From contig JAUHXM010000014.1 in NCBI GenBank assembly GCA_030426605.1, positions 1 through 46,163 on the forward strand: a DNA stretch of 46,163 nucleotides, written 5' to 3'. Positions within the stretch are counted from its first letter, which is position 1. Each line of letters starts with the position of its first letter. Positions 2,934-29,367 of this stretch are shown one piece after another. The position numbers and the translations under genes are program-made. A model generated the notes under the pieces. That model did no database searches. It had not been told where the DNA came from and was given only the letters and a program-made list of their open reading frames with translations. The DNA comes from Phycisphaerae bacterium (GTDB lineage Bacteria; Planctomycetota; Phycisphaerae; Phycisphaerales; UBA1924).

Positions 2934-4733
2934 TCAGTCCTGCCGCCGGTTCAGCAGCAGCCCCGGCTCGAGGTTGAGGATCACGACGTCGCCGATCGCC
3001 ATGCGGTCCACCTCGACGTTGAAGCTGCACAGGAAGAGCAGCTTGAGCTCCTGGTCCGTGCGCGAGCTGCTGAGCGGCGTCGCGATGTCGGCCGACCCGA
3101 CGAGCGGGTCGCCGGGCGTGTACCGGATCGTCACCTCGCCCGACTCCTTGTAGATGTACCCGACCGCGTCGTACGCGACGCCCGAGGTGTCGATCAGGCG
3201 GATCGGGGCGTCGCCGTCCTGCAGGCGGGCGACGGGCCCGATGAGGCTGCCCGGCGTGCCGTCCGAGACGTCGATCTGCACGAGCACCTGGTCACGCGCC
3301 ACGCCGAACCGGTCGGTCTTCAGGTTTCGGTCCGGCGGCGAGCCGAAGTCGCCCGGGAACCGGTACACGCCGGTGCCCGTCTGGATCCGGTTCTCGTCGT
3401 CGAGCGAGAAGTTCCGCCGCGCCATCGAGACGTGCAGCGAGAGCTGCCCCGTCAGGCTGTTCGTCGGCTGGATGATGGACGTGTCGGAGGTGTCCACCGT
3501 GACGGCCCGCGAGTCGTCGAACTCGGGGGTTTCTTCCGAGGCGCCGCCCCGCAGGATCGCGCCGTCACGCACGACCGAGTTGCGGGCGTTGATGCTCTTG
3601 TACGACACCGGCTCGGGCGCGCCCTCGCGCAGGTCGATCCGAGCGTTCTTCACCATCAGCCCGATCGGCGTCGATCCCTGCGGCACCACGAACTCAAGCC
3701 CCAGCGTCACGGTCGAGGCCCCGCCGACCGTCGCGAGCACGAGCTCGTCCGAGTCGAACCGCCAGCGCCCGTACGCGTCGTTGCCCGAGGACGCCTGCGA
3801 GATCATCGCGACCGGGAAGACGTTGAACGTCGAGCCGTCCTCACGCTCGCACACCAGGCGTGCCTGCCCGTTCGAGAAGATCACCTGCCCCGCACCACGC
3901 TCGCCCGGGTCCTTCGCCCCGGCATCGAACGACAGCACGTAGCCGGCGACGTGCCCCGTCGCGACCTGCTCGCCGCGGGTGTCCGCGTAGGGCATGGGCG
4001 ACATCTGACCCTGCTGCTCGAACATGAGCAGGGAGGCGATGGGAGATCCGGCCTCCGCGTCGCCGACGGTGTACGTCCGCACCAGCCGCACGTCCTCGCG
4101 CTTGATGGCGATCACGGGCGTCTCGTCCTCCGAGGAGATCCGGTTCGCGTACGCCACGGCGTGCAGGTCGGGGTACCAGCGTGCGAGCGGCTCGTCCGCC
4201 GAGAACGCCCGCTCGGACAGGCTGCCATAGAACGCCCCCGTGATCCGGTCCACGGGGACCCAGAGCCCGCTCGTCAGCTTCAGGCTGCCCACGCCCTCGG
4301 AGCGTTCCTGGTTGTACCAGATCGGCTGATACCCGAGGAACCCCGCGGGGAACCGCGTGGCGCTGATCGCGATGACGAGCACGCCGGCGCAGAGCACGCC
4401 CGAGACCAGCCCGCACAGCCCGCCGCCGACGTAGTCGGCCTGCGTGCTCAGGGTCACGTTCGCGGGGATCAGCTTGTCCAGGATCACGCGCACGATGATG
4501 GTCGTGACGACAAATGGCAGGATGAGCCCGGCGCTCCATGCGACGGCTCCGAGGAACCCGGTGCCGCCGACCGCGCCGAGGATCATGAGCGACAGCGGCT
4601 CCCACAGCGCGAACGCAACGGCACCGCCCACGATCACCGCGACCATGTGGAGCAACGCGTTGAAGAACCCGCGCGTCGCCCACGCGTACGCGATGTTCCC
4701 CACCAGCAAGATGACAGCGATTTGAATGGTCAT
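2934..4733 (-). CDS. CvpA-family membrane protein with long C-terminal domain
   Basis: A 599-residue protein. Residues 1-150 have four hydrophobic segments and look like the CvpA/colicin V production family, an inner-membrane family with a poorly defined role in envelope function. The rest, about 440 residues, is soluble, probably beta-rich, and not recognisable to me. Normal CvpA proteins have only 160-180 residues, so this is a fusion or an elaborated form. It is the last gene of an apparent minus-strand operon: the PilB-like gene ends 30 bases upstream, and pilT precedes that. GGTGAGA lies before the ATG. Confidence is fair for the N-terminal call and low for function. Confidence 0.6.
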   Translation of the reverse strand: MTIQIAVILLVGNIAYAWATRGFFNALLHMVAVIVGGAVAFALWEPLSLMILGAVGGTGFLGAVAWSAGLILPFVVTTIIVRVILDKLIPANVTLSTQADYVGGGLCGLVSGVLCAGVLVIAISATRFPAGFLGYQPIWYNQERSEGVGSLKLTSGLWVPVDRITGAFYGSLSERAFSADEPLARWYPDLHAVAYANRISSEDETPVIAIKREDVRLVRTYTVGDAEAGSPIASLLMFEQQGQMSPMPYADTRGEQVATGHVAGYVLSFDAGAKDPGERGAGQVIFSNGQARLVCEREDGSTFNVFPVAMISQASSGNDAYGRWRFDSDELVLATVGGASTVTLGLEFVVPQGSTPIGLMVKNARIDLREGAPEPVSYKSINARNSVVRDGAILRGGASEETPEFDDSRAVTVDTSDTSIIQPTNSLTGQLSLHVSMARRNFSLDDENRIQTGTGVYRFPGDFGSPPDRNLKTDRFGVARDQVLVQIDVSDGTPGSLIGPVARLQDGDAPIRLIDTSGVAYDAVGYIYKESGEVTIRYTPGDPLVGSADIATPLSSSRTDQELKLLFLCSFNVEVDRMAIGDVVILNLEPGLLLNRRQD

Positions 4734-4763: not shown

Positions 4764-6467
4764 TCAGGACGCCTTGCGCCCCGACCCGCCCGATGGCTTC
4801 TTCGCCGGGGCGGTCACGCGCGTGACTTCCTCGACGCTCGTCACGCCCTCGACCGCACGCCGCAACGCGACCTGCGCAAGCGAGGGCATCTGCTTCTTCC
4901 GCATCTCGGCGCGCAGGCCGGACCAGTTCTCTTTCGCGATCAGCGCCCGCTCGTCGGGCCCGATCGGGAGCACCTCGAACACGCCGATCTGACCGAAGTA
5001 CCCGATCCCGTTGCACACCGGGCACGTCTCGGGCTTGGACCGCACCAGCACCTGGCCGCCCTTCTTGTGCAGCTGCTTCACCTTCTCGGCGGGCAGCCCG
5101 AGCTTGGAAAGCATCTCCGCCGGCGGGGTGTACGCGACCCGGCAGTTCTCGCACAGCTTCCGCACGAGCCGGTGGGCGATCACGCCCCTCAGCGCGTTCG
5201 CCGCAGCCTTCTTATCGCCGACCGCCTTGCACCAGATCTGCAGCGCCGCCGTCGCGCCGTCGGCCCGGATGCTCGCGTACACGCGCGTCCGCTCCAGGTC
5301 CGCCTTGGAGATCTCCTGGGCGGTTTGCACGTCGGGCACCTCCGCGGCGCCCACCACGTCCGGGTCACGCCGGAGCATGGAACGCAACTGCGTCGCGTAA
5401 TCCGCGCCGTCCGCGGTCGCGTCGAACGGCGTCTGCCGCACACCCTCGATCGCGTCGTCGATCTCGAACTCGAGCGTCTGCACGTTGGACGTGTACGCGT
5501 CGTGCTCCTTGAGCAGGGCGTACAGCGTCGTCGTCCGCCCGTTGTCCGACGGGGCCGCGAGCAGCACCACGCCCGAGCCGTCCTCGACGAGCTCGCGGAC
5601 CGCTTTGAGCTGCGGCGGGTCGAGCAGCCCGATCTTGTCGAGCTTGCGACGGACCGACGCCGCCGGGTCGAACAGCATCGTCAGCTTCATGCCCGCCTGC
5701 GATCCGCTGGTGGTCAGGCGGATCGGCGTCGAGACCTCATCGGCGGTCACCGTGATCATCGCCGTCTGCTTGCGCCGGCGGTCGCCGACGTCGAGCTCGC
5801 CGCACTTCTTCCAGAAGTCGATGACCGCGACCGCCTGCTGCGGGGCCAGCGGCTCGCCCTGCTGACGCACGCCGTCCACAAGGAAGCTCGCGGCGTACTG
5901 CTTCTCGCCCGCCGGCATGATGTCGATCTGACTCGCCCGGACCTCGCGTCCGTGCAGCAGCACTTCCTCCGCGGCGACGCGCAGCTCGTAGTCCGGCGTC
6001 CCCTTCTCGGGCACCTTCATCGGAGCTTTGCTCGGCGACGCGATCTTGAGCTTCGAGGTCCCCATGGACTTCTCGCCCTTCCTCGCCGCCCGCGCTTCCT
6101 TCCACTTCGACATGTCGAGCGTCAGGCGCGCGTGCTCGGGCACCCGCTCGTCCTTGTTCGCGATCGCGACGAACAGCCCGATGTCGAGCGCGTAGATCGC
6201 GATCATCACGAGCATCCCAGCCGCGAACCCGCCGATGCCCGGCACCGGCATCAGCACAACGGCGAGCACGCCCGCCAAGCCCGCGATCAGGTGCACCAGC
6301 CCCCAGGTTTCACGACCCAGAAAGAAGCGTGCGGCGTGCTTGTCCAGGACGTTCGACACCAACCACGCCCACCCGATGATCGGGATGAGCATGACAAAAG
6401 GCTGCCACAGGCCGACGAGCATGTACCCCGCGCCCAGCGTCAGACCCGTTCCTCCATCGCCCATCAT
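4764..6467 (-). CDS. Membrane-anchored PilB/GspE-like protein with degenerate ATPase motifs
   Basis: From the ATG at 6467 this is a 567-residue protein; an in-frame start further upstream (6560) would add a low-complexity Pro/Arg stretch and looks unlikely. Two or three hydrophobic segments occupy residues 16-105. The C-terminal half aligns by eye with secretion ATPases of the PilB/GspE family: RLVRKLCENC near 433-442 and CPVCNGIGYFGQIGVFEVL near 483-501 keep the four-Cys zinc site and the family tail. The nucleotide site is altered: Walker A reads APSDNGRTTT (305-314), with Arg for the invariant Lys; Walker B reads DPDVVGAAEVPD (368-379), with the following RD changed to PD; and the His box reads SIRADG. 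I infer a structural or regulatory pseudo-ATPase. It follows pilT with a 127-base gap. Confidence 0.7.
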   Translation of the reverse strand: MMGDGGTGLTLGAGYMLVGLWQPFVMLIPIIGWAWLVSNVLDKHAARFFLGRETWGLVHLIAGLAGVLAVVLMPVPGIGGFAAGMLVMIAIYALDIGLFVAIANKDERVPEHARLTLDMSKWKEARAARKGEKSMGTSKLKIASPSKAPMKVPEKGTPDYELRVAAEEVLLHGREVRASQIDIMPAGEKQYAASFLVDGVRQQGEPLAPQQAVAVIDFWKKCGELDVGDRRRKQTAMITVTADEVSTPIRLTTSGSQAGMKLTMLFDPAASVRRKLDKIGLLDPPQLKAVRELVEDGSGVVLLAAPSDNGRTTTLYALLKEHDAYTSNVQTLEFEIDDAIEGVRQTPFDATADGADYATQLRSMLRRDPDVVGAAEVPDVQTAQEISKADLERTRVYASIRADGATAALQIWCKAVGDKKAAANALRGVIAHRLVRKLCENCRVAYTPPAEMLSKLGLPAEKVKQLHKKGGQVLVRSKPETCPVCNGIGYFGQIGVFEVLPIGPDERALIAKENWSGLRAEMRKKQMPSLAQVALRRAVEGVTSVEEVTRVTAPAKKPSGGSGRKAS

Positions 6468-7975: not shown

Positions 7976-9055
7976 TCAGTTCGACCCGGCCGCCTCGGCC
8001 TCTTCCGATGCCTGGTCCTCCTCGGTGGTGCCGAGGAAGTTGGCTTCGAGCTCGACCTTGATCTTCTCCATCGCCTTGTTCTGAATCTGACGGACACGCT
8101 CCTTGGTCACGCCGATGATCTGCCCGACCTGCTCGAGCGTCATGGGCTTCTCCTGCGCCCCGTTCTCAAGCCCGAACCGGTGCTCGATCACGGTCCGCTC
8201 GACCGTCGAGAGGTCCGCCTGGTTCTCCGTGACGATGCGGCGCACCTCGTCGGCGGCGTCCCGCTCGAAATCGGCCCGCTTGGTCTCGAGGAAGTTCGAT
8301 CGCTCGAGCTTCGGGTCGAAGTCCGTCGGGAACCGCTGGCGGTACTTGCTGAGCTTCATCCCCTGGCGGCTGAACGCCTTGAGAATCGCCCGGCACGCGT
8401 ACGTCGAGAACTTGAACCCACGCCCAGCGTCGAATTTATCAACGGCGCGGAGCAGGGCCATGTTCCCCTCGGAAACCAGGTCGGCGAAGTCCACCTCGCT
8501 CATCCGGGTCCGCTTGGCCATCGCGAGAACGAGCGCGAGGTTCGTCTCGGCGATCTGCTCACGGATCCGGTCCGCCCGGCGGTGCCAGCGGAGGATCTCC
8601 TCCGCCTGTGCCGGCGTGGGCGTGCGGTCGGCGCGGGCCCAGATCGCGTGCTGGAGCTCGCGGACCCGGTACCGGGCGTAGTTGAACTGGTGGAAGAGGA
8701 TCTTCTCTTCCGCCGCCGTCAGGATCACCTGCTGGCTCGACTTCACGGAGCGTGTGCGGCTCGACGCCGTCACATCGTCCATCACCGGGTGGTACCAGGT
8801 GGTGTCGGGCTTGGCGACATCGGGCTGGAGCTCATAGATCTCCTTCTCGGCGTTGTTCGTGTAGAACGCCTCGGAGTCGATGAAGTCCTGCTCCTTGGCG
8901 AGGATCCGCGTCAACAGGCGCTCGTCCTCGTGGCTCAGACGGCGCGAGGCACCGCCCGCCCGCGAAGCGGAGCGCGTCGTCCCCACGCGGGTGCGGCGAC
9001 GCACCTGCTCGAGAGGACTGGGGGAGGTTCGGGAGGCTTGCGTCATTGCGGTCAT
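7976..9055 (-). CDS. RNA polymerase sigma factor, sigma-70 family
   Basis: A 359-residue sigma factor. Region 2 runs from about residue 185 (DFADLVSEGNMALLRAVDKF then GRGFKFSTYACRAI), the core-binding and -10-recognising part. Region 4 near the C-terminus (MTLEQVGQIIGVTKERVRQI) is the -35-binding helix-turn-helix. The first 60 residues are Arg/Ser-rich, and an acidic tail closes the protein. The usual WWIRQAI of housekeeping factors is replaced by YACRAILKAF, which suggests an alternative group rather than RpoD. The start at 9055 has GGATGGAAAG just upstream, but ATG 9046 is possible. It is divergent from sodA across a long gene-free stretch. Confidence 0.88.
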   Translation of the reverse strand: MTAMTQASRTSPSPLEQVRRRTRVGTTRSASRAGGASRRLSHEDERLLTRILAKEQDFIDSEAFYTNNAEKEIYELQPDVAKPDTTWYHPVMDDVTASSRTRSVKSSQQVILTAAEEKILFHQFNYARYRVRELQHAIWARADRTPTPAQAEEILRWHRRADRIREQIAETNLALVLAMAKRTRMSEVDFADLVSEGNMALLRAVDKFDAGRGFKFSTYACRAILKAFSRQGMKLSKYRQRFPTDFDPKLERSNFLETKRADFERDAADEVRRIVTENQADLSTVERTVIEHRFGLENGAQEKPMTLEQVGQIIGVTKERVRQIQNKAMEKIKVELEANFLGTTEEDQASEEAEAAGSN

Positions 9056-9599
9056 CTTTCCATCCGCCAGCGTCCAGCGGGCGGTCCATCTACGTGTCCT
9101 TGGGGCGTCGGGCCCCGGGCTTGCTCCAACCATGCCCGGCACTCGCCAGGTCGTGGTTTGCCGTCCTCATCCAGTGCGTCCATGCCCGGAATTGGTCGCT
9201 GGATCGACCTCCAGTCCTTGGAGGTCTCAGCGCTCGGAACACCGGTGGACAACACGCCCCTCGGCGGGCAACCTGACGGGACTACGTCCCATGCCCGCAC
9301 GAAGTTCGCCTTGTCGCGGCATTCAGATGCTCCGAATGCCGCCTCACCGTCTCCGATCGGGGGTTGCACACACGCTCGGCCGTCCTTCCCCAAATCCGGG
9401 CATCCCCACAAGGGCCCCCGAATCTGGTTGTAGGACACCAGGAGAACTGCGTCCTGGCTGCCGATCATCCCGACCCATCGGATTTGCTCGCGGCGCTCGT
9501 GTTGAGCCGGCCCGCGAAGGGGAGTGGGTCCTCTGGATGTCGGCCTGGCGGCGATCGGCCCCGTCTTGACGCCCCGGCATGCCAGGGCTACCGTTCTCG
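9056..9599. other. Gene-free region with small hairpins between the sigma factor gene and sodA
   Basis: No open frame here has protein-like composition. Several perfect short hairpins are present: ACCTCCA/TGGAGGT (9207-9225), GGGAC/GTCCC (9278-9290), GCGGCATTC/GAATGCCGC (9316-9342) and CCAGGA/TCCTGG (9438-9457). They would lie in the 5' leader of the sigma gene if its promoter is distant, or could belong to a small RNA. Nothing further can be identified. Confidence 0.4.
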
Positions 9600-14555: not shown

Positions 14556-16142
14556 CTATCGGCCCGTCACGCGGGCCACCCGCCCCGCCCGGCGGGCCCA
14601 GAACATCACCAACGCGATCGACGCGAGCAGCAGCGCCCCGCCCGTCTGGTGCAGCGTCGTGACGAGCGCCTCGCCGGGCCGGATCGCGTGGGCGGTCGCG
14701 AGCTCGCTCGAGACCGGGATCTCCGTGGGTTGGTCGCCCGTCATGACGACCCAGAGGGCCATCCACCCCAACAGGAACTGGACGAAGAGGACCGCGAAGA
14801 CCGCGCGTCCTGTCGTCCGGATCGCTCGCCCGTGCCGATCGCCCTTGCCGGCGCGCCCGCAGGCGGACGCCGCGATCACGGCCGCCACGACGACGACGAA
14901 CGAGAACCCCGCGTGGGTGTAGATCGAGTGCGACGAGGGCTCGCCCTCGCCCGTGGTGATGTGGCGCGCGAGCGCGCCGAAGATGATCTGAACGGTCGTC
15001 AGGACGAGCGCGATGAGCGCCATCTTGCGGATTGATCTGGCGCTCCCAGCGGTGGCGTCATCGAGCGGGCCGTCGGCGGCAGCGCGGTCGAACAGCACCG
15101 CGGCGACCATGGCGCCCGTCGCGAAGACGATCTGTGCGAACACGCCGTGAAACGCCGCAACCCACGCGAGATTCTCATCAACGCGCACGATGCCGTAGAG
15201 CCCCTGGATGAAGATCAGCGCGAACAACCCGCCCGTTGCCCCGGCGGTCTTGTTCCTTGCGATCATCGCGTGCGTGTAACCGAGCGCGCCGATGCCGACG
15301 GCCGCCATGAGCGCGATCGAACCGGACGCGGGCAGCGCCTCGGCGTGCCCCGCGCCCATCGCGCCCGCCGCCAGGATCAGGAAAACCCAGGTAATCCCGA
15401 GCGCGGTCAAGCGATCACGCCCCGGTGTGCGCACGAGCGCGACGATCCAGAGCGTGAGTGTCGTCAGCCCCACGAGCGACCCGAACAGCCGGTGCGAGTG
15501 CTCCATGAAGATCCGCGGCTCGCTCATGAGCGAGATCGGGAAGAGCGCGCTGAACGCCCCGTAGCTCGTCACCCCGTCGGGGACCGCCATCCCCGACTCG
15601 GTGCTCGTCACCGCCCCGCCGATCCCGATCAGGGGCAGCATCGCGAGGGCCGCGACCGCGCCGAACCAGGTCAGCCACCGGTCGGCGGTGGGGGCCATGC
15701 GGTCCCGGGGCGACACGGCGCTCCCGATGAACCCGCCGACCGCGCCGATCAGCATGCACAGCGCGACGAACCCGAGCACGACGAACGCCGCGTTGGGCTG
15801 CAGCCGGTTCGCGGCGTCGGTCATCTGCTCGGTCGTCTCTGGCTGCTCGACGATCTTGGACCCGAGCAACAGCATCGCGAGCAATCCCGCGATGAGCCCG
15901 GACCCCGCGCCGAGCCGCACGCCCCCCTTGGGCCCGCCGAGCCGCCCGATGACTGCCGTCATGACGAGCAGGGTCGCCATGCAGAGCGCGCCGAGCATTG
16001 CGTAAGAGCCTGTCGTTCCTTGGGTTGAGAGCGACACGGAGTGCGTCGTGAGCCAGGCGGTCCACATCGCGACGGACGCCGCGAACCCGCCGGCGAGGGA
16101 GCCGGTGAGGACGGGCGGGCGTGGATCGGGCAGGTTGGTCAT
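14556..16142 (-). CDS. ctaA: Heme A synthase (CtaA/COX15) with extra N-terminal membrane domain
   Basis: A 528-residue multi-pass membrane protein that should convert heme O to heme A for the caa3 oxidase encoded nearby. Family motifs are the first His pair in FMEHSHRLFGS (about residue 213), AAFHGVFAQ, SIYTHAGFSF and LHQTGGALLLAS, which supply the heme ligands. Typical CtaA proteins have 310-390 residues; here about 170 residues with three or four additional hydrophobic segments precede the core. The heme O synthase partner CtaB is not in this window. It is divergent from actA; the 220 bases between them contain two palindromes that may control both directions. Confidence 0.85.
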   Translation of the reverse strand: MTNLPDPRPPVLTGSLAGGFAASVAMWTAWLTTHSVSLSTQGTTGSYAMLGALCMATLLVMTAVIGRLGGPKGGVRLGAGSGLIAGLLAMLLLGSKIVEQPETTEQMTDAANRLQPNAAFVVLGFVALCMLIGAVGGFIGSAVSPRDRMAPTADRWLTWFGAVAALAMLPLIGIGGAVTSTESGMAVPDGVTSYGAFSALFPISLMSEPRIFMEHSHRLFGSLVGLTTLTLWIVALVRTPGRDRLTALGITWVFLILAAGAMGAGHAEALPASGSIALMAAVGIGALGYTHAMIARNKTAGATGGLFALIFIQGLYGIVRVDENLAWVAAFHGVFAQIVFATGAMVAAVLFDRAAADGPLDDATAGSARSIRKMALIALVLTTVQIIFGALARHITTGEGEPSSHSIYTHAGFSFVVVVAAVIAASACGRAGKGDRHGRAIRTTGRAVFAVLFVQFLLGWMALWVVMTGDQPTEIPVSSELATAHAIRPGEALVTTLHQTGGALLLASIALVMFWARRAGRVARVTGR

Positions 16143-16185
16143 GGGCGCCCCTTCAGGAGAAGAAGGATCGGAGCTCCGGGGAGTT

Positions 16186-16204
16186 ATTGAGACCGCGTCT
16201 CAAT
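16186..16204. promoter_or_regulatory. Palindromic operator candidate between ctaA and actA
   Basis: ATTGAGAC and GTCTCAAT, separated by CGC, form a perfect inverted repeat with 8-bp arms and a centre-to-centre spacing of about one helical turn. That fits a dimeric helix-turn-helix regulator. It lies about 45 bases upstream of the ctaA ATG and about 160 upstream of actA. Confidence 0.5.
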
Positions 16205-16254
16205 TACGGGCAAACAGGCAGGCAACCCATGGTAGGGGGTCTAGGAGGGGGCAA

Positions 16255-16273
16255 ATTTCGGTGTGGCCGAAAT
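16255..16273. promoter_or_regulatory. Second palindrome upstream of actA
   Basis: ATTTCGG and CCGAAAT flank TGTGG as a perfect inverted repeat. It lies upstream of a TAGGCT -10-like box (16295-16300), the most plausible promoter of the act operon, at a distance suiting a regulator site. Confidence 0.45.
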
Positions 16274-16362
16274 GCGGGGGTTTGACCGAGGTGCTAGGCT
16301 GTGGGCTGGTCCGCGTGCCCGTTCGCGCGCGGGGTCCACCCATCTTGCCAGGGGATCTGACT

Positions 16363-17058
16363 GTGCCATCTCTCTTCCCGCGGTGGATGAACGCGTTGCC
16401 CACGCTGGGGGCTGTTGCCGGGCTGGGCGGGTTCGTGACGGTGGTCGGTGCCGTCACGTACTACTTCACGCCCAAATTCTGGGAGGTCGGGTACATGCCC
16501 GAGCAGCCCAGCACGGGGTTCAACCACCGGATCCACGCGGGCACGCTCGGCATCGACTGCCGGTACTGCCACTCGAACGTCGAGGACTCCAAGATCTCCA
16601 ACGTGCCGACGGTCTCCGTCTGCTACGGGTGCCACCAGGAGAACCACGTCAGCTCCGAGTACGTCTCGGACGACAAGGTCGCGTTCATCCGCGAGGCGTA
16701 CGAGACCAACAGCTCCATCGAGTGGGTGAACGTGCACGTCCTGCCCGACTACGTGCAGTTCCCGCACCACGTGCACGTGAACGCGGGTGTCAGTTGCTAC
16801 TCGTGCCACGGGCAGATCATGGGCATGCCGGTCGTCTACCAGGCCGAGCCCCTGAGCATGAAGTGGTGCCTGGACTGCCACCGCAACGCGGAGGAGAACC
16901 TCGTCCCGCCGGACAAGGTGACGGATCTCGCGTGGGTGCAGCAAGACTGGTTCGACAAGAACCCGAGCGACCGGAATCACGAAGGCCTGACGCCCGAACA
17001 GCTCGTGCAGTCCCTGCACCGAGACCCACCCGAGCACTGCGCGGCGTGCCACTACTGA
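16363..17058 (+). CDS. actA: Alternative complex III pentaheme cytochrome c subunit
   Basis: A 231-residue protein that starts at a GTG preceded by AGGGGA. One N-terminal membrane helix (about residues 12-35, AVAGLGGFVTVVGAVTYYF) anchors it. Five CxxCH heme motifs follow in order: CRYCH, CYGCH, CYSCH, CLDCH and CAACH, the last at the very end. This number and order match ActA of the quinol-oxidising alternative complex III, which takes electrons on toward the monoheme cytochrome. It opens the operon, divergent from ctaA, and the following actB starts 27 bases after its stop. Confidence 0.93.
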   Translation: MPSLFPRWMNALPTLGAVAGLGGFVTVVGAVTYYFTPKFWEVGYMPEQPSTGFNHRIHAGTLGIDCRYCHSNVEDSKISNVPTVSVCYGCHQENHVSSEYVSDDKVAFIREAYETNSSIEWVNVHVLPDYVQFPHHVHVNAGVSCYSCHGQIMGMPVVYQAEPLSMKWCLDCHRNAEENLVPPDKVTDLAWVQQDWFDKNPSDRNHEGLTPEQLVQSLHRDPPEHCAACHY

Positions 17059-17085
17059 GCCCTCACCCGACGACGAGACACGACG

Positions 17086-20000
17086 ATGACGACGCTTGAT
17101 CAATGCCCGTCCACAAAGGGTTCGAAGGACGTTCAGCTTGGCGGCATGGACTCGCCCGCGCCGGGGCAGCCCTGGCGTTCGCTTGACGAGTACGCGGGCA
17201 CGCCCGAGTTCCGCAACTTCGTCGAGCGTGAGTTCCCGGCGGGCGCGTCGGAATTGGCGCGCGAGTCGCGCCGGTCCTTCATGAAGGTGATGGGCGCCGG
17301 GCTCGCGATCGCGGGAGCGGCGACGGTGCCGGGCTGCCGACGCCCGGCGCGCGAGATCATGACCTACTCGCAGACGGTCCCCGAGGAGATCATCCCGGGC
17401 AAGCCGCTGTACTACGCGACGAGCCTCCCCCTTCCCGGCGGCGGCGCCGAGGGCCTGCTCGTCGAGACCCACGCGGGTCGCCCGACCAAGGTCGAGGGCA
17501 ACCCGCTGCACCCGATCAACCGCGGCAAGAGCACCACGTGGTCGCAGGCGGCGGTCCTCGACATCTACGACCCGGACCGCCTGAAGAACCCGGTTTTCCA
17601 CAACCAGGCGCGCGGCAAGCTCAACGCGACGTGGGACGACTTCAAGGGCTGGCAGGCCGAGCACTTCGCACGCTTCGACGCGACCGACGGTGCCGGGCTT
17701 GTGTTCGTTGTCGATAAGAAGACCAGCCCGACGCGCGACGCGATGCGCGACGCCGTCAAGAGCCGGTGGGGCGCCGCGGAGTGGATCGCGTACAACCCCG
17801 CCGAGTCGAACTCCATGGCCGAGGGCACGCGGATCGTGTTCGGCTCGCCCATGCGAGTGCGGCACACCCTCGCGAACGTCCAGCGTGTGCTGAGTCTCGA
17901 CGCGGACTTCATGGACGAGGGGCCCGAGGCGCTCGTCTGTGCTCGTGACTTCGCGGCGACCCGCGTCGTGCATCATTCGGGCGACGAGATGAGCCGCCTG
18001 TACGTCGCCGAGTCGCGCCCGTCGGGCACGGGCTCGATGGCGGACCACCGCCTGCGGATGTCGCCCAGCGGGATCTCGTCGATGGCCGCCGAGGTGGCGC
18101 GGTACGTCTTCGCCGGCGCCGGGGTGTCGAGCGCGGCGTCGCTCGTCGAGGGCCTCGTCGCGGTGCCGTCGCACGGCGACGAGCGTGGGCACGAGAACCA
18201 CGCGCGGGAGATCGCCGAGGACCTGCTCGCGCACCGCGGGCATTCGGTGATCATCGCGGGCCCGACCCAGCCCGCCGAGGTGCACGCGCTCGTCGCCGCG
18301 ATGAACGAGGCGCTCGGCGCCGTCGGCACGCACGTTGGATACAGCCCGATGGGCGAGGAAGAGGCCGCGGACTGTTGCTCCGTGATGGCGGACCTCGCGA
18401 CGCGTCTGGACACCGTGGACACCCTCGTCTGCATCGACGCGAACCCGGCGTACGACATGCCGGGCTTCGCCGACGCGATCGCGGGCGTGGGCACGCTCAT
18501 CACGCTGAGTGTCGGGCCGAGCGAGACGTCCGACGTCGCGACGTGGGCGCTCAACAGCGCGCACCCGCTCGAGAGCTGGGGCGACGCCGAGGCGTGGGAC
18601 GGCACCGTCGCGCCGACGCAGCCGATGATCGCGCCGCTGTACGAGCCGGCGCTGAGCGAGATCGAGTTCCTGGCGCTGCTCGCCGGGCCCGACCATGGGG
18701 GGTCGGATCAGCCCGACGGGCACGCGCTCGTCACCCAGGCGTGGTCGGCCCGCACGGGCACCGCGATGGGCGACGCGTTCGACAAGATCTGGCGCCGGGC
18801 GCTGCACGACGGCGTGCTCGCGGGCTCGGGCTCGCGGGCCCAGCGCCCGAGCGCGAACTGGGGCGCCGTCCGCGGCGCGATCGGAGCGCTGGCGGCGTCG
18901 CGCTCCGCGGCGCCCGCCGGGCTTGAGGTCGTCTTCCGCACCGGTCGGCGCGGCGACGGGCGAAACGCGAACAACGCCTGGCTGCAGGAGATGCCCGACG
19001 TCGCGACGGCGGTCACGTGGGACAACCCCGTGTGCGTGAGCCCGCGCACCGCCGAGGCGCTCGACCTGCTCCCGCCCGGCGCGGACGCCGAGGACGCCAA
19101 CCCGTACACCAAGCAGCAGATGCCCCAGGCCCGCCTCGCGACGCTCAACGTCGGCGGGCACGAGATGGAGGTCGCCGTCTGGGTCCTCCCGGGCATGCCC
19201 GACAACGTCGCGGCGGTCGAGCTCGGCGGCGGGCGCACCGTGTGCGGGCTGGTGGGCAACGAGGTCGGGCACAACACCTACGCCGTCAAGCCCGTGGGCG
19301 CGAACACCGCGTCCGGCGCGAGCCTCACCCGCGCGAGCGGCACGCAGACCATCGCGTCCACCCAGAACCACTGGACCATGGAGGACCGGACCACGATCGT
19401 CCGCGCGATGGACAAGAAGTGGTTCGACGAGCACGCGGCGCAACCGCCCAAGAGCAAGCCCGACAAGATCTACGGCACCGAGCTCGCGCACACCAAGCTG
19501 AACGTCGCCGAGCAGCTCGGCGAGCTCGCGCACACGCCCGAGGTCGTCTCGATCTACGAGAACCCGGAGAACGCGTCGCGTGCCGACGCCGCCGAGGGTT
19601 CGATCTACTCGAAGGGCCCGCAGTGGGGCATGACGATCGACATGAACGCCTGCACCGGGTGCGGCACGTGCACGATCGCCTGCCAGAGCGAGAACAACAT
19701 CCCGGTGGTGGGCAAGTCCGAGGTCGCCAAGGGCCGCGAGATGCAGTGGATCCGCATCGACCGCTACTTCACCGGCGACGTCAACAACCCCGACCAGATG
19801 CTCATGCAGCCCATCGCGTGCGTGCACTGCGAGAACGCGCCGTGCGAGACGGTCTGCCCCGTCAACGCGACGGTGCACGGGCCCGAGGGCACGAACAACA
19901 TGGCCTACAACCGGTGCATCGGCACCCGCTACTGCGCCAACAACTGCCCGTACAAGGTCCGCCGCTTCAATTTCTTCGACTGGGCCCAGTCCAAGTTCCG

Positions 20001-20670
20001 CGGCGGGCTCGATGCCTCGTACGTCGGCGAGGACATCAAGAAGCGCTTCGAAGAAGGCATCGCGAGCGATCGGACGTTCAACCAGAACTTCATCCCGCCG
20101 CGACTGCGTGAGAAGGTGGACGAGATCTCCAAGATGCAGAAGAACCCGGACGTCACGGTCCGGAGTCGGGGTGTCATGGAGAAGTGCACCTACTGCGTGC
20201 AGCGGATCAACGCCGCCCGCGCCGAGGTGAAGGTCAACGGCATGTGGAACGAGCCGGACCAAACCGGCCCGATCCCCGACGGGTTCTTCCAGGTCGCCTG
20301 CCAGCAGGCGTGCCCGACGGACGCGATCGCGTTCGGCGACATCCTGGACCCCGCCGCCAAGGTCAGCGAACTCCGCGACTCGCAGCGCGGGTACGCGCTC
20401 CTGGGCTACCTCGCGACGCGCCCGCGCACCACCCACCTCATGCGGGTGAGGAACCCAAACGCCGCGATTCATGAGTACGACCACCACGACCCGCTCCACC
20501 ACGGGCCGGACCACGGCGGCGGCCACGACTCGCACGGCGACGACCATCAGGACGACAGCCACGAGGGCGACGGGCACGCGTTCGTCGATCCGATCAAGAA
20601 GCGACTTGAAGATGGGTACTCGATGAGCCTGCGGGTTCTCGGTCAGAGCATCACGGGGGTGCAGGCGTGA
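17086..20670 (+). CDS. actB: Alternative complex III iron-sulfur subunit (fused molybdopterin-like and Fe-S domains)
   Basis: A 1194-residue subunit. A twin-arginine type motif ([10 protein letters not shown]) lies at residues 61-70, typically offset in ActB. Residues 90-800 resemble the molybdopterin oxidoreductase fold, although ActB proteins carry no molybdenum. The C-terminal Fe-S part holds the cysteine groups [11 protein letters not shown] (about 855), [13 protein letters not shown] (912), [11 protein letters not shown] (944), CTYC (1035) and CQQAC (1073), enough for three 4Fe-4S and one 3Fe-4S cluster. A tail around 1129-1165 is strikingly rich in His and Asp. It should relay electrons within ACIII on the periplasmic side. 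The next gene overlaps it by four bases. Confidence 0.93.
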
Positions 20671-22310
20671 GTTCGATCCATCCCGACCAGATCACCGCCG
20701 AGCGCCTCGCCGGGCTCCGCGACGCGCCGGGCGACTACGTCGGCCCCGCGGGCGGCGCCGACGGGTCGCTCATCGAGGACCCCGCGGTCCGCGCGCCGCT
20801 GGTGCTCAACGACCGCTCGTTCGCCGAGGTGACCGAGACCGTCTGCTCGTACGCCGAGTGCGGCCCGCCCAAGGCGTGGCTTGGGCTCATCACGATCACG
20901 AGCCTCATCGCCGCGGTCGGCACGGGCATGATCCTCTACCTGATCATCACGGGCGTCGGCGTGTGGGGCCTGAACAACCAGGTGGACTGGGCCTGGGACA
21001 TCACCAACTTTGTGTTCTGGATCGGTATCGGCCACGCCGGCACGCTCATCTCCGCGATCCTCTGCCTGCTCAAGCAGAAGTGGCGCACCGCGGTGAACCG
21101 CAGCGCCGAGGCGATGACGATCTTCGCCGTCGTGTGCGCGGGCATCTTCCCGGGCATCCACGTCGGCCGCGTCTGGTTCGCCTGGATGCTCTTCCCCATC
21201 CCGAACTCGAACGGCATCTGGCCCAACTTTCGCTCGCCGCTGCTCTGGGACGTCTTCGCGGTGTCCACCTACGCGACGGTGTCGCTGCTCTTCTGGTATA
21301 TGGGCATGATCCCGGACCTCGCGACGCTGCGTGACCGGGCGCACCTGCGGATGCTGCAGGGGCGCGAGCGCCGCCTGACGCTCCCGATGCCGGTCGGCAA
21401 GGACATCGTGCTCCCGTTCGTCCCCAGCGCCGAGCGCGTCGCGGCGTACATCTACGGCTTCCTCGCCCTGGGCTGGCGTTTCAGCTCGCGCCACTGGCAC
21501 CGCTACGAAGCGGCGTACCTCATCCTCGCGGGCATCTCAACGCCCCTCGTCCTCTCGGTGCACTCGATCGTGTCGTTCGACTTCGCGACCTCGATCCTGC
21601 CCGGGTGGCACACGACGATCTTCCCGCCCTACTTCGTCGCGGGCGCCGTGTTCGGCGGGTTCGCGATGGTGCTCTTCCTGCTCATCCCGTGCCGCCAGGT
21701 CATGCCCGGGTTCAAGGACCTGCTGACCCTGCGCCACCTCGAGAACATGGCGAAGATCCTCCTGCTCACCGGCATGATGGTCGGGTTCGCCTACTCGATG
21801 GAATTCTTCATCGCCTGGTACGGCGGCAATGAGTTCGAGTGGTCGGTGTTCATCAACAACCGCGCGAACCCCGCGGAGGCGCCCTACTGGTGGGCGTACT
21901 GGACCATGATCGGGTGCAACGTGCTGAGCCCGCAGATCTTCTGGTTCCGCAAGCTGCGTCAGAACCCGCTGGCGATCTGGATCGTCGCGGGGTTCGTGAC
22001 GGTCGGCATGTGGTTCGAGCGGTTCGTGATCATCGTCACGTCGCTGCACCGCGCGTTCCTGCCCGGCGAGTGGCACATGTTCTTCCCGACGTGGGTGGAC
22101 ATCCTGACCTTCGTCGGCTCGTGCGGCATCTTCGCGACGCTGTTCCTGCTGTTCCTGAAGTACCTGCCCGTGTTCGCGATGGCCGAGCTCAAGGCCGTCA
22201 TGCCGCAGGCGGACCCCCACGGGGGCGGGCACGGCCATGATCCTGTCGCGTCCGTCGCCGGCGGCGCGAGCGCCGGGGGGGCGTCTGCCTCGAAGGGAGT
22301 CGGGCCGTGA
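20667..22310 (+). CDS. actC: Alternative complex III membrane subunit, NrfD/PsrC family
   Basis: A 547-residue integral membrane protein starting at a GTG that overlaps the actB stop (GTGA). About ten hydrophobic segments begin at residue 70 ([20 protein letters not shown]), with the NrfD-like arrangement of charged residues between them, e.g. [12 protein letters not shown] and [18 protein letters not shown]. In ACIII this subunit is thought to form the quinol site and part of a proton route. The C-terminal 30 residues are Gly/Ala/His-rich (PHGGGHGHD). The next gene overlaps by four bases, so the operon is tightly coupled. Confidence 0.92.
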
Positions 22311-22930
22311 TCTCACCTGCCAACATCCTCGCGGACATCGCCGACTACATGCCGTTCATGAAGCGTCCGGCACCTCGGTTCATCTCCGAATCGGGCAACC
22401 GGATCTATGGCATTGTCGCGGAGTACGCCGACCCGCACGCCGTCACCGTCGCCGCCGAGCAGTTCCGCGACGCGGGCTACACCCGGTGGGACGTCTACTC
22501 GCCCTTCCCGATCCACGGCATGGAGGGGCACATGGGCATCAAGCGCACCATCCTGCCCGTGGCGGCGTTCGGCGCTGCCGTCACCGGCGTGCTGGCCGCG
22601 CTCGCGCTGCAGTACTTCACGAACGACATCGACTACCAGTTCGTGGTGCAGGGCAAGCCAACCAACGCGTGGGAACCCTTCATCCCGGTCACCTTCGAGC
22701 TGGGCGTCCTGCTCACGGCGTTCACTTGCATCGGCGGCATGCTGATGCTCAACGGGCTGCCCCGCTGGAACCACCCGCTGTTCAGCTCCGAGCGGTTCCT
22801 GAAGGTGTCGGACGACCGCCTGATCATCGCGGTCGAGGCGGCCGACGCGAACTTCGACCCCGATGCCACCCGGCGCCTCCTCGAAGAGAGCGGCGGCACC
22901 AACATCGAACTCATCGAGGACGACGACTGA
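22307..22930 (+). CDS. actD: Alternative complex III subunit ActD (DUF3341)
   Basis: A 207-residue protein with a GTG start overlapping the actC stop. The N-terminal part (to about residue 70) is soluble and contains [20 protein letters not shown] and [17 protein letters not shown], characteristic of the DUF3341/ActD family. Two membrane helices follow (about 76-100 and 122-145), then a short tail. ActD is a structural subunit of alternative complex III without cofactors. Its stop overlaps the start of actE (TGATG). Confidence 0.9.
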
Positions 22931-23688
22931 TGCGGACCTCACGACACATCACCCTCGGCGTCGCGCTGCTGGGCACCCTTGCCGCAGCGGTCCTCCCCGC
23001 CTGCCGGGGCGACCGCTCGGAGAAGCCCCCACGCCGGTTCCTGCCCGACATGGACCAGCAGCCCCGGTGGAACCCGCAGGACCATTCTGAGTTCTACGTG
23101 GACGGCCGCGTCCATCGCGTCCCCGACGACCGCGCCGTTGCGTTCGGGTATCACCCGACGAGCCCGGCGATGCTCGACGACGTCGCGTGGGGCGCGTCCT
23201 ACCTGGACGAACGCGCCGCGCTGCTCGCCGAGGACGACGCGTATTACCGCGGGCTCGACGCCGACGGCGGCTACGTCGCCTACGCCCCCGTCGAGCCCAC
23301 GGCCGCGATGATCGAACGCGGGCAGGAACGGTTCAACATCTACTGCTCCGCCTGCCACGGGTATCTGGGCGACAGCAAGGGCACCGTGGGCGATCGCTGG
23401 AGCATCCCGCCGGCGAACCTGCACAACCCGCTCTACACCGACCGCTCGGCGAACCAGGGCACCGACGGGTACATCTTCCACATCATCCGCAACGGCTTCT
23501 GGAACGACGACGGCACGAACCGGATGCCCGCCTACGGGCACGCCGTGGATGAGGCCGACGCCTGGGCGATCGTGCTCTATCTCCGCTCGCTGCAGCGTTC
23601 GCAGGGCGCGACGCTCAACGACCTGGAATCGGGCGAGCGGTCCCGACTCGAATCGACGCGGGGCGCCGCCCCCGAGGGGGGTGCGTGA
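22930..23688 (+). CDS. actE: Alternative complex III monoheme cytochrome c subunit
   Basis: A 252-residue protein. The N-terminus has a signal ending in a lipobox-like LPAC near residue 27, so it may be a lipoprotein. The single heme site CSACH lies near residue 139, preceded by GQERFNIYC, and the probable axial Met is in NRMPAYG near 200. This fits ActE, the exit cytochrome of ACIII that passes electrons to the oxidase or a soluble carrier. The ATG overlaps the actD stop, and its own stop overlaps the actF start. Confidence 0.92.
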   Translation: MRTSRHITLGVALLGTLAAAVLPACRGDRSEKPPRRFLPDMDQQPRWNPQDHSEFYVDGRVHRVPDDRAVAFGYHPTSPAMLDDVAWGASYLDERAALLAEDDAYYRGLDADGGYVAYAPVEPTAAMIERGQERFNIYCSACHGYLGDSKGTVGDRWSIPPANLHNPLYTDRSANQGTDGYIFHIIRNGFWNDDGTNRMPAYGHAVDEADAWAIVLYLRSLQRSQGATLNDLESGERSRLESTRGAAPEGGA

Positions 23689-25010
23689 TGGCCCAGATGT
23701 CTGCCCGCCCGGCCGCGATCTCGGACGACGCCTACAACGCGCGCCTAGAGAAGATCGCCAGCTCGCCCGAAATGCGCGAGGACAACATCACCCTGCCTTA
23801 CGCAGGCGCGATGAAGCTCTCCGGCGCGATGGGCGTCGTCGGCATCCTCGGCCTGCTGCTCGTGGTGATCGGGGCGTTCGTCTACAACCCGAAGCACGCG
23901 CTCGCGGCGTTCGAGGTGGGGCTCTTCACCGTCACCGCCGCCTCGCTCGGGTCGCTGTTCCTTGTGATGATCTGGAACATGATGATCGCCGGGTGGCACG
24001 TCACGATCCGGCGTCACTTCGAGAACGCGGCGTCGCTGCTCCCGTTCTGCTGCCTCGGGCTCGGCGCCGTCGTGCTGATCGAACTGTGGGGCCCCGGGCG
24101 CGAGGGCTCGGGCGTGCTGCTGCAGTGGCTCTACGCCGAGAAGCAGGGCACCTTTCTCGTCGAGCACAAGGCGGGCTACCTGAACCCGCTCTTCCTGGGC
24201 GTTCGCTGGGTGATCTACACCGTGGTCTGGTCGTTCCTCGCGCTGCGACTGCGGGCGCTGAGCCGCGAGCAGGACCGCACCGGCGACCGGTGGCTCAGCC
24301 GCAAGGCGCGGTTCATGTCGGGCTGGGGCCTGCTCATCACGGCGCTGACGACCGCGTTCGCCGCCTTCGACTTCCTGATGTCGATGGACTACCGGTTCTT
24401 CTCGACGATGTGGGGCGTCTACTTCTTCGCGATCAGCGCGCTCGCGGCGGTCTCGCTCGCGTCGCTCGTGTTCGCCGGCATCCGCTCGATGGGCCGCCTC
24501 ACGGGCGTTGTCACCGACGAGCACTTCCACGATCTGGGCAAGCTCGTCTTCGCCTTCACCTGCTTCTGGGCGTACATCGCCTTCGGGCAGTACTTCCTGA
24601 TCTGGTACTCCAACATCCCCGAAGAGACGTACTACTTCATCCACCGCACGACGGGCGACTGGAAGCCCCTGTTTGTCGCCCTCACGTTCGCGCACTTCGT
24701 GGTGCCGTTCGTGCTGCTCGTATCGCGGATCCCCAAGCGTTCGACGCTCGCCCTGGGCGTCGCGGGCGTCTACATGCTCGTGCTCACCGTCGCGGATCTG
24801 GTCTGGATCATCCGCCCGATGGTCTACCTGGGCGCCGAAGGGGCCGAGGCGGGCCCGGGCATGATGGGCTGGTGGCTGGACGCCGCGGGCATCCTGGGCG
24901 TGCTGGGCATCTACGGCGCGCTGTTGATCCGCCAAACCGCGTCGGCACCGCTGATCCCGACCAAGGACCCGATGCTGCACGAGGCGATGGCCCACAAGAA
25001 CTACGTGTAA
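23688..25010 (+). CDS. actF: Alternative complex III membrane subunit ActF (NrfD-like)
   Basis: A 440-residue integral membrane protein. The ATG at 23688 overlaps the actE stop; a GTG three bases earlier is an alternative. About ten hydrophobic segments follow a 40-residue cytoplasmic start. Segments such as AAFDFLMSMDYRFFSTMWGV and FGQYFLIWYSNIPEETYYF are typical of ActF, the second NrfD-like subunit, homologous to ActC but probably without the quinol site. It ends at 25010, and a 27-base gap with a tandem 14-bp repeat separates it from the next gene. Confidence 0.9.
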   Translation: MAQMSARPAAISDDAYNARLEKIASSPEMREDNITLPYAGAMKLSGAMGVVGILGLLLVVIGAFVYNPKHALAAFEVGLFTVTAASLGSLFLVMIWNMMIAGWHVTIRRHFENAASLLPFCCLGLGAVVLIELWGPGREGSGVLLQWLYAEKQGTFLVEHKAGYLNPLFLGVRWVIYTVVWSFLALRLRALSREQDRTGDRWLSRKARFMSGWGLLITALTTAFAAFDFLMSMDYRFFSTMWGVYFFAISALAAVSLASLVFAGIRSMGRLTGVVTDEHFHDLGKLVFAFTCFWAYIAFGQYFLIWYSNIPEETYYFIHRTTGDWKPLFVALTFAHFVVPFVLLVSRIPKRSTLALGVAGVYMLVLTVADLVWIIRPMVYLGAEGAEAGPGMMGWWLDAAGILGVLGIYGALLIRQTASAPLIPTKDPMLHEAMAHKNYV

Positions 25011-25038
25011 GACGAGACGAACCAGACGAGACGAACCA
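25011..25038 (+). repeat. Tandem 14-bp repeat ahead of a small membrane protein gene
   Basis: GACGAGACGAACCA occurs twice in direct tandem (25011-25024 and 25025-25038). The final A is the first base of the next gene's ATG. No Shine-Dalgarno sequence is visible between the two genes. Confidence 0.75.
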
Positions 25039-25469
25039 TGAGTCATCATCAGCACACGCCCGAACCCCACGAGCAGCCCGACGCGTGGCACCAGCACATC
25101 GCCGCCGAGGGCATGCCCCAGCAAGAGCACGGCGCCCGGGCCAACCCCGTCGCGCTGACGCTCACGCTCTTCGGCATCGTCCTCAGCTTCGTCTTCCTGC
25201 TGCTCGTCGTCTGGCTCTACTACAACACCTACACCACCCAGCTCAAGGCCGAACGCCGCGAGTCCGTCACCGAGACGCAGCGCACCGACTATGAGACCAA
25301 GCGCGGCGGCGCCCAGACGCGCCTCTCTCAGTCCCCGGGCTGGATCGACCGCACCAACGGCACCGTGCACATCCCGCTCGACCGAGCCGTCTCCCTCGTC
25401 ATCGAGGAGTACGGCCGGGCCGGCGCGATGGCGCCCGCCACCACGGAGGTCGCCCGCGACGATGGCTGA
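25038..25469 (+). CDS. Small single-TM protein between ACIII and Sco genes, unknown
   Basis: A 143-residue protein. The first 35 residues are His/Glu/Gln-rich (MSHHQHTPEPHEQPD), then one membrane helix spans about residues 42-66 (LTLFGIVLSFVFLLLVVWLYY). The rest, soluble and probably periplasmic, ends with WIDRTNGTVHIPLDRAVSL, a phrase that resembles small accessory proteins found beside cytochrome oxidase genes. It could be an ActG-like subunit or a copper/assembly factor; I cannot decide. It overlaps the Sco gene by eight bases, so it is clearly part of the operon. A tandem repeat precedes it in place of a ribosome-binding site. Confidence 0.7.
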   Translation: MSHHQHTPEPHEQPDAWHQHIAAEGMPQQEHGARANPVALTLTLFGIVLSFVFLLLVVWLYYNTYTTQLKAERRESVTETQRTDYETKRGGAQTRLSQSPGWIDRTNGTVHIPLDRAVSLVIEEYGRAGAMAPATTEVARDDG

Positions 25470-26352
25470 GCGCCGGCTCATCCCGTGCCTGATCACCGCC
25501 GCCCTCGCAGCCGCGATCGCGTGCGCCCCCGCGCACGCCCAGCGCCTGCGCGACCGCTCGGAGATCAAACAACTCCAGGGCGTTGATCTCGAAGAACGCA
25601 TCGGCGAGACCATCCCCCTCGACATCGAGCTCACCGACGCGAACGGCCGGACCGTGACGCTCGGCGATCAGCTCGGCGGGCGCCCAACCGTCCTCGCGCT
25701 CGTCTACTACGACTGCCCGATCGTCTGCTCCGTCGTGATGGACCGGCTCGCCGAGTCGATGAATGGCCTCGACTACGCCGTCGGCGAGGACTACTCGACC
25801 GTCGTCGTCTCCTTCGACCCCAGCGAGACCACCGAGCAGGCGATGGCCCGCAAGCAGGTCTACCTCTCGGGCTACACCCAGCCCGTCACGCCCGCGACGC
25901 AGGCGGGGTGGACGTTCCACACCGCCGACGCGATCGAGATCGCGAGGCTGATCAACGCCGTGGGCTTCAACATCCAGAAGCTCGACAACGGCGAGTACTC
26001 GCACCCCGTCGGGCTGTGCGTCGTCTCGCCTGAGGGCAAGATCTCACGCTACATGTACGGGTTCGACTACCCGCCCAAGCAGTTGAAGCTGTCATTGCTC
26101 GACGCGAGCGAGGGCAAGATCGCCCAGTCGCTCGGCGACCGGTTCCTGCACTTCTGCTACCGCTACGACCCCACCGCGGGGGCGTACTCAATGGAAGCCA
26201 TGACCGTGATGCGCATCGGCGCCGTGCTGACGGTGATCGTGCTCACAGTCCTCATCTCGGGCTTGCTCATCGCCGAGCGTGCCCGCCGCCGTCGCCGCTC
26301 CAAGTCGATGGCCGTTGAATCTCCCGCACCCCGAGCCATGGGGCACGCCTAA
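25462..26352 (+). CDS. Sco1/SenC family copper chaperone for the CuA centre
   Basis: A 296-residue thioredoxin-fold protein. A signal peptide covers about residues 1-27 (ending AHAQ), and a C-terminal membrane helix lies near 253-275, unlike most Sco proteins, which are anchored at the N-terminus. The copper-binding pair is CPIVC near residue 86, and the third ligand His is in YSHPVG near 180. Sco proteins reduce and load copper into CuA of oxidase subunit II, and coxB follows with a one-base overlap (TAATG). The start at 25462 lies inside the end of the preceding gene. Confidence 0.9.
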   Translation: MAERRLIPCLITAALAAAIACAPAHAQRLRDRSEIKQLQGVDLEERIGETIPLDIELTDANGRTVTLGDQLGGRPTVLALVYYDCPIVCSVVMDRLAESMNGLDYAVGEDYSTVVVSFDPSETTEQAMARKQVYLSGYTQPVTPATQAGWTFHTADAIEIARLINAVGFNIQKLDNGEYSHPVGLCVVSPEGKISRYMYGFDYPPKQLKLSLLDASEGKIAQSLGDRFLHFCYRYDPTAGAYSMEAMTVMRIGAVLTVIVLTVLISGLLIAERARRRRRSKSMAVESPAPRAMGHA

Positions 26353-27554
26353 TGACGTTGACGCTCGCCGAAGCCGGATTCTTCCAGAAGCTCTTCTTCC
26401 GAGAAGCGCCCTCGACGGACGCCGTCGAGTTCGTGGACAACTTCTCCCACTTCCTGTGGTGGCACTCGGTCTTCTGGTTCGTGCTGTTGATGGGCCTGAC
26501 GGCGTACTTCGTGGTGAAGTACCGCCGCCGCCCGGGCAACATGTACGCCGAGCCCAGCCCCTCGCACAACACCGTGATCGAGACCATCTGGACCGTCGTC
26601 CCCTCGCTCATCCTGATCGTGATCTTCCTGTTCGGGTTCTGGGGCTACATGGACAAGATGGTGTCCAAGTCCGACGCGCTCGAGCTGCAGATCAAGGGAT
26701 GGAAGTGGGGCTGGGGCATCACCTACCCCAACGGCACCGATTCGCTCGAAACCGCGTACCTTGACGAGGGCGGGCGCGCGTTCCCCGTGTTCTACATCCC
26801 CGAGAACACGGACATCACCCTCACGATGTCCTCGCAGGACGTGATCCACTCGTTCTGGATCCCCGACATGCGCGTGAAGATGGACGTGATGCCCAACCGC
26901 TACACGGGCTACTCGTTCACCTCGCCGCCGGTGCCGGAAAACGCGACCGCCGAGGTGCTCTGGGAGGACGGCCCGCTCGTCGCCCACAAGGATATGTGGA
27001 TCTTCTGCGCCGAGTACTGCGGCGACAACCACTCCGAGATGGCCGGCATCATGCGCGTCGTCTCGCAAGAGCACTACGACGCGTGGATGGTCGCGAAGAT
27101 GTCCGGGATCGGGCCCGACGTGCTGGGCCCCGCGCTCTTCACCACCAAGTGCGCGACCTGCCACAAGCTCGACGGCTCTCAAAACTCGACCGCGCCCTCC
27201 TGGAAGGGCGGCGCCGAGTACTTCGATCAGCAGTACGGCTTCGGTTACGACGTCCGTCTGAACAACGGCGAGGTCATCGAGCGCGATGTCGACTACGTCC
27301 GCAACTCCATCCTCAATCCCTCGTCGCAGGTCGTCGCGGGATACCCGGGCAACATGCCGTCCTTCGACGGGCTCCTCACCGACACCCAGCTCGAAGCCCT
27401 GATCTGGTACTACCGCAAGCAGTCCGACCGCAGCGGGCTCGACGCCGAACCCGCCGAGGGCGAAGAGGGCGCCGAAGACGGGGCATCCGAAGAGGGCGCC
27501 CCCGCCGAATCCTCTGAAGAAGCACCCGCCGACGACACCGCGGCCCAGCCGTAA
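26352..27554 (+). CDS. coxB: Cytochrome c oxidase subunit II with fused cytochrome c (caa3 type)
   Basis: A 400-residue protein. Two membrane helices (about residues 33-56 and 78-97) precede the cupredoxin domain. CuA ligands are seen as His in VIHSFWIP (near 166) and the [12 protein letters not shown] motif near 219. A cytochrome c domain follows, with CATCH near 267 and the axial Met in GNMPSFDG near 336. This fused form defines caa3 oxidases, which take electrons directly from their donor complex, here most likely ACIII. The last 45 residues are a Glu/Ala/Pro-rich tail. Confidence 0.95.
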
Positions 27555-27573
27555 GACCGCGAGGAGATCGACG

Positions 27574-29367
<1,794 letters not shown>

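Follow-up and report, generated by a model that had tools for sequence, protein, structure and literature searches.

Secretion and pilus ATPases of the PilB/GspE family are regarded as catalytic motors. In Myxococcus xanthus PilB, mutants in the Walker A Lys and the Walker B Glu lose ATPase activity and motility; ATPase-dead PilB signals in this species, probably in its nucleotide-free state (PMC5544727). PilT with a dead Walker site can still support retraction, through PilU (PMC6762196); both cases are precedents for non-catalytic roles within the family. In PilB, residues E357 and R455 connect neighbouring subunits where the interface is open or apo (PMC5424180). The protein described here is of known fold and family, and is encoded in the window (the whole stretch of DNA analysed, 46,163 nucleotides) by a gene that the initial annotation had read as a membrane-anchored PilB/GspE relative that had lost its ATPase residues. 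This gene and its neighbours are arranged as follows.

2934..4733, minus strand: CvpA-type protein, 599 aa, starting about 30 bases past the stop of the next gene listed (PF02674, E 5e-6)
4764..6467, minus strand: membrane-anchored PilB/GspE-family gene, very probably for a pseudo-ATPase, 567 aa
6595..7917, minus strand: pilT, upstream and in the same direction, with intact P-loop GVTGSGKSTT (TIGR01420, 383 bits, above cut-off)
7976..9142, minus strand: sigma-70-type factor, upstream of pilT (PF04542, PF04545)

The longest version of the pseudo-ATPase reading frame extends to 6560, and a start at 6467 is plausible, given how soon the first membrane helix follows. Pfam finds a single domain, PF00437 (T2SSE), at residues 175-550 (144 bits, E 6e-42). 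The top NCBIfam model is that of GspE (TIGR02533), at 189 bits against an equivalog cut-off of 630; all NCBIfam equivalog models score the protein far below cut-off, and the PilT/PilU retraction ATPase model TIGR01420 gives 33 bits against 319. Comparison with a same-genus relative yielded a dN/dS of 0.32, and the protein is therefore under selection. The gene is real: its conservation throughout the class, together with this ratio, rules out a pseudogene or frameshift, and sequencing error or chance is ruled out by the absence of the Walker A Lys from 223 of 224 relatives as well.

The AlphaFold model, built with 75 homologues as input, has a pLDDT of 94.1 and a pTM of 0.81. Structure comparison (VIA) aligned it with PilF/PilB (5oiu_B) at Z 38.6 over 382 residues and 3.0 A, and residues 159-555 match the PilF and PilB cores (Z 38, about 380 residues, 3 A), so that by both PF00437 and this alignment the protein has the N2D and RecA-like C-terminal fold of PilB/GspE. 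PilB and GspE are soluble, without membrane segments, but here helices are predicted at residues 21-105, in keeping with the added N-terminal helices of the initial annotation.

6153..6407, minus strand: three predicted transmembrane helices, H21-47, H52-71 and H78-105 (residues 21-105; AlphaFold model, hydropathy)

The hydropathy scan by itself flags two membrane helices, and the model adds a predicted juxtamembrane helix at 119-137. Anchor columns W33, W55 and P74 are conserved in 90-97% of 73 class sequences. With this many helices, the N-terminus is expected on the periplasmic side and the ATPase-like part in the cytoplasm. Two intact anchored homologues of other families (L070 and L071) have an apparent signal peptide ahead of the anchor.

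The motifs of the window's copy were read against the seven intact PilB/GspE proteins encoded by the same genome; PilB equivalences (R257, R271, R286, E357, H420, R455) were taken from the spacing in PMC5424180 and from alignment columns.

5526..5555, minus strand: degenerate Walker A APSDNGRTTT, residues 305-314, Lys replaced by R311 (GPTGSGKT in intact paralogues)
5463..5477, minus strand: Asp-box remnant TLEFE with E333 (TVEDP in intact paralogues)
5331..5366, minus strand: Walker B region DPDVVGAAEVPD, residues 368-379, with its Glu (E376) kept and the Arg of GEIRD lost
5253..5279, minus strand: lost His box YASIRADGA, residues 397-405, His replaced by R401
5013..5153, minus strand: zinc-type tetracysteine C439, C442, C482 and C485, all four Cys kept

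The initial annotation was partly borne out by this comparison. The Walker A Lys is indeed an Arg, the His box is gone (STLHTNDA in intact paralogues, ASIRADGA here), the four zinc-site Cys remain, and alignment with the intact paralogues shows the RLVRKLC segment and the C-terminal tail to be retained. Its statement that the RD pair of the Walker B region had been lost holds for the Arg but not for the Asp, as GEIRD has become AEVPD. A further loss, absent from that annotation, is the gamma-phosphate Arg finger (PilB R286), here L265; the equivalent of the PilB R271 finger is retained as R250. The window's copy keeps both catalytic glutamates, E333 of the Asp box and E376 after Walker B, and weak nucleotide binding by this copy is therefore possible.

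We counted these residues across the class, taken as Phycisphaerae, in 224 distinct aligned sequences (an earlier alignment had 73). The Walker A Lys was present in none of the 73 and in one of the 224, the His-box His in three, and the R286 equivalent in 35, which supports the initial reading of a pseudo-ATPase and extends it to the whole class. The R271 equivalent was found in 87 and the Glu after Walker B in 107, and no sequence kept more than four of six key catalytic residues. Other positions were fixed or nearly so: the Asp-box Glu E333 (PilB E357, Mg-coordinating), G310 and R436 (PilB R455) each in 224 of 224, Thr or Ser at position 312 in 222, and the complete tetracysteine in 216. Catalytic residues were intact in all seven same-genome paralogues and in six anchored homologues from outside the class. 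Loss of ATPase activity is thus well supported by the sequences, and the window's protein is very probably a pseudo-ATPase.

Where the initial annotation had proposed asking whether the Walker A Arg is conserved in orthologues, the answer was mixed: Arg is the replacement in 120 of the 224 (Leu in 38, Val in 34, others in fewer) and so is not fixed, the trait being loss of the Lys. We accordingly rejected Arg as a conserved stand-in for Lys. The same annotation held that orthologues with a normal GKT/S motif would mark the protein as a divergent active enzyme; orthologues of this kind do occur, but beyond the class, where they represent the ancestral condition, and their existence is no sign of activity in the window's protein. 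Within the class there is a single Lys. It belongs to L331 (genome G432, contig C68:10750-12750), the sole class member with this residue (GPPKSGKTTT); this sequence has neither His box nor Arg fingers, its same-group relatives carry Arg or Val, and its Lys may be a reversion or a relic.

Full-length orthologues that include the anchor are present in nearly all relatives in the order; within the class, a first count gave 68 of 81 genomes and a later, larger one 274 of 298. Of some 140 genomes sampled outside the class, about ten had an anchored homologue, and each of the six such sequences examined had intact catalytic motifs. In an IQ-TREE phylogeny the class sequences formed one clade (support 100/100), which grouped with the anchored intact homologues apart from other PilBs (98/97). 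The catalytic loss, on this tree, has one origin, at the base of the class; the single clade and the 274 of 298 genomes rule out a horizontally acquired oddity. Intact GKT/GKS relatives in other planctomycete families (L068-L073) share the membrane anchor, which therefore, again judging by sequence, predates the loss. A near-complete P-loop persists in several members (GPPRSGRT, GPAGSGVT, GPAGSGRT). From the tree grouping and these members we consider it likely that the anchor was gained first, that the Lys and other catalytic residues were then lost, and that decay of the loop followed.

Neighbouring genes were compared in 41 regions from different families and in 80 named loci (labelled Phycisphaerales, Phycisphaeraceae, Phycisphaerae or Planctomycetota, a few seemingly mislabelled). 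The constant neighbour is CvpA, and PilT is the usual one. A cvpA gene lies downstream in the same direction in 40 of the 41 regions, and is adjacent in 74 of the 75 named loci with room to look; pilT precedes the pseudo-ATPase gene in 33 of the 41, in one of them (L106) with an intervening gene, and is adjacent in 56 of 71 named loci with room to look, overall about 80%. The P-loop of PilT is intact in the window, as first annotated, and so it is in nearly all copies of the locus PilT that the motif scan read, with GKS/GKT kept wherever the reading was clean (the copies at L108 and L092 were unread by the scan). Where the locus had no pilT, an orthologue was found elsewhere in genomes G011, G062, G215 and G198. 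Three further genomes, G092, G065 and G089 (loci L090, L100 and L091), have apparently lost the pilT orthologue and have distant paralogues only, while the pseudo-ATPase and cvpA genes persist. The orthologue missing in these three checked genomes weakens the candidacy of PilT as an obligate partner.

CvpA is a widespread, poorly understood membrane protein, and we know of no tie between it and pili. PF02674 scores the annotated window copy at 27 bits, just below its cut-off of 29.3, and at 31 bits, above it, in the genome scan; this was the single CvpA found in the genome. The AlphaFold model (pLDDT 90.6) has four membrane helices. Its C-terminal domain is large, beta-rich and confidently modelled over about 400 residues. 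The ectodomain had no PDB match at E ≤ 0.001 (best 6e-3, probability 0.07), which, for a domain modelled as part of the whole protein, is no proof of a new fold. CvpA open frames measure 355 to 861 aa beside the dead form and 201 to 251 aa beside the intact form, which suggests that growth of the ectodomain and loss of the ATPase belong together, this being one evolutionary contrast and not many. A candidate fusion of pseudo-ATPase and CvpA at L026 (a 1089-aa open frame) was rejected, since its tail has no CvpA-like sequence by eye and looks like out-of-frame high-GC DNA. We hold a partnership of the pseudo-ATPase with CvpA to be highly probable.

Other genes are less regularly present. The sigma-70-type factor was found in 38 of the 62 named Phycisphaerales loci with enough upstream sequence, in close relatives only, and probably stands outside the core unit. 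A hisF-like gene lies ahead of pilT in 11 of the 41 regions (L080-L084, L086, L092, L093, L099, L101 and L105). Elsewhere in the window, 14556-29367 holds a respiratory cluster with a CtaA-like protein, an iron-sulfur (Fer4) protein, NrfD, cytochrome c, SCO1 and COX1, which looks like an alternative complex III with a cytochrome oxidase. At L106:5991-7730 (genome G109) the gene between pilT and the pseudo-ATPase gene encodes an intact PilB with an FHA-like N-terminus, a possible active partner of the pseudo-ATPase. The pseudo-ATPase locus contains no pilin, GspF or secretin gene, and the link to a pilus therefore rests on homology and on PilT; the genome as a whole has seven intact PilB/GspE genes, seven GspF genes, PilM and five secretins.

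The lineage has thus been left without its Walker A Lys, without the His of the His box and without most of the Arg fingers that contact phosphate, and has kept the fold, the zinc site, the anchor and the neighbourhood; by its sequence relationships it is derived from an active, membrane-anchored PilB/GspE-type motor. We give about even chances to the protein being a nucleotide-free partner of CvpA, a ring or adaptor tethered to the membrane that serves to dock or regulate PilT or a pilus or secretion machinery. In such a mechanism the pseudo-ATPase would still form a PilB-like ring or part-ring beneath the inner membrane, staying nucleotide-free (apo, open), and with CvpA would make up a fixed inner-membrane platform. 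On a pilus or secretion machine this platform would dock or gate further motors of the PilT family, as a rule the one encoded in the same locus; the pseudo-ATPase would work through binding and conformation and not through ATP hydrolysis. Survival of E333 and R436 while the phosphate contacts decayed fits a nucleotide-free ring, and is no proof of one, because both residues are also invariant in active PilBs. A scaffold role in a pilus or secretion system, taken by itself, has at best the same even chance and perhaps slightly less. The fuller proposal is tentative and, as a whole, rather doubtful: a previously undescribed, class-wide inner-membrane complex, made up of CvpA and a dead ring of PilB type bonded to it, on whose fixed platform interchangeable PilT-type motors would dock or be gated, with ATPase loss and growth of the CvpA ectodomain marking a change from motor to structural hub.

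The main rival, which we consider unlikely, is a role in the cell envelope centred on CvpA, with the pseudo-ATPase a cytoplasmic CvpA scaffold in envelope homeostasis or solute handling that has left the pilus world altogether. The tie of CvpA to deoxycholate resistance in enteric bacteria (PMC6705877) gives this reading a precedent in stress resistance. No gene other than that of CvpA is a constant partner, and the genome yielded no second CvpA; the pair, moreover, persists in the three genomes that lost the PilT orthologue. PilT nonetheless adjoins in most genomes, and also in other families with an intact anchored PilB (L098, L099), which suggests a link to a machine of the type IV pilus kind. 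Two further alternatives are each quite improbable. Inactive subunits might join hexamers of active PilB or PilT and so tune or slow them, as the invariance of the interface residues E333 and R436 in all 224 sequences and the intact FHA-PilB of G109 (L106) would allow, but the locus has no conserved intact PilB partner, and work on Vibrio cholerae PilT/PilU speaks against mixed hexamers in that pair (PMC6762196). About equally improbable is a sensor that would bind a ligand such as ATP or ADP and change conformation without hydrolysing it: in its favour are the invariant G310 and E333, the near-invariant T312 and the post-Walker B Glu of 107 sequences, but elsewhere the P-loop is free to vary (DNGR, GQGR, HMGR, RHGQ) and Leu, Val or Ile is frequent at position 311, which a retained phosphate-binding site would not lead one to expect. 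That the protein is a divergent active ATPase with Arg substituting for Lys is very improbable, since despite the Arg of 120 sequences (and of 75 of the 80 named Phycisphaerales loci) and the two catalytic Glu of the window's copy, 103 of the 224 have neither Lys nor Arg, with the His box and the Arg fingers lost as well.

A loss of single origin, maintained class-wide, means that the PilB fold is selectable for something besides ATP hydrolysis. The dead lineage amounts to natural knock-outs of each catalytic residue, including intermediates with a near-normal P-loop and Lys replaced by Arg or Val, and its neighbourhood ties CvpA to the type IV filament superfamily, a testable entry to CvpA function. 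In the open-access literature searched we came across no natural lineage of dead PilB/GspE spanning a class, no membrane anchor of this kind and no pairing of PilB with CvpA, and as far as we found the intact anchored PilB-like proteins of L068-L073 are likewise undescribed.

These last are the nearest lineage in the tree, with the same N-terminal anchor and with cvpA, often also pilT, as neighbours; they differ in having GKST/GKTT, GEIRD and the His box intact and a CvpA of 201-251 aa, against at least 355 aa (open-frame length) beside the dead forms. With PilB/PilF, the type IV pilus extension ATPase (PDB 5tsh, 5oiu), the pseudo-ATPase shares a common fold over 380 residues (Z 38, 27% identity), the tetracysteine zinc motif, the Asp-box Glu and the inter-subunit Arg equivalent to R455, but it is without the Walker A Lys, the His box and the gamma-phosphate Arg finger, and in place of an N-terminal MshEN/GSPII domain, of which Pfam finds none, it has three predicted membrane helices. 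The type II secretion ATPase GspE/EpsE (PDB 4ksr, 1p9r) is the best sequence family match (4ksr, E 5e-40) and shares the zinc motif, whereas the pseudo-ATPase is far under the equivalog cut-off, has lost catalytic residues, lies outside any gsp cluster and has its own membrane anchor. In PilU and catalytically dead PilT mutants a non-hydrolysing family member may likewise act via a partner motor; PilU, however, retains its catalytic motifs and the death of PilT was engineered there, whereas that of the pseudo-ATPase is natural and class-wide.
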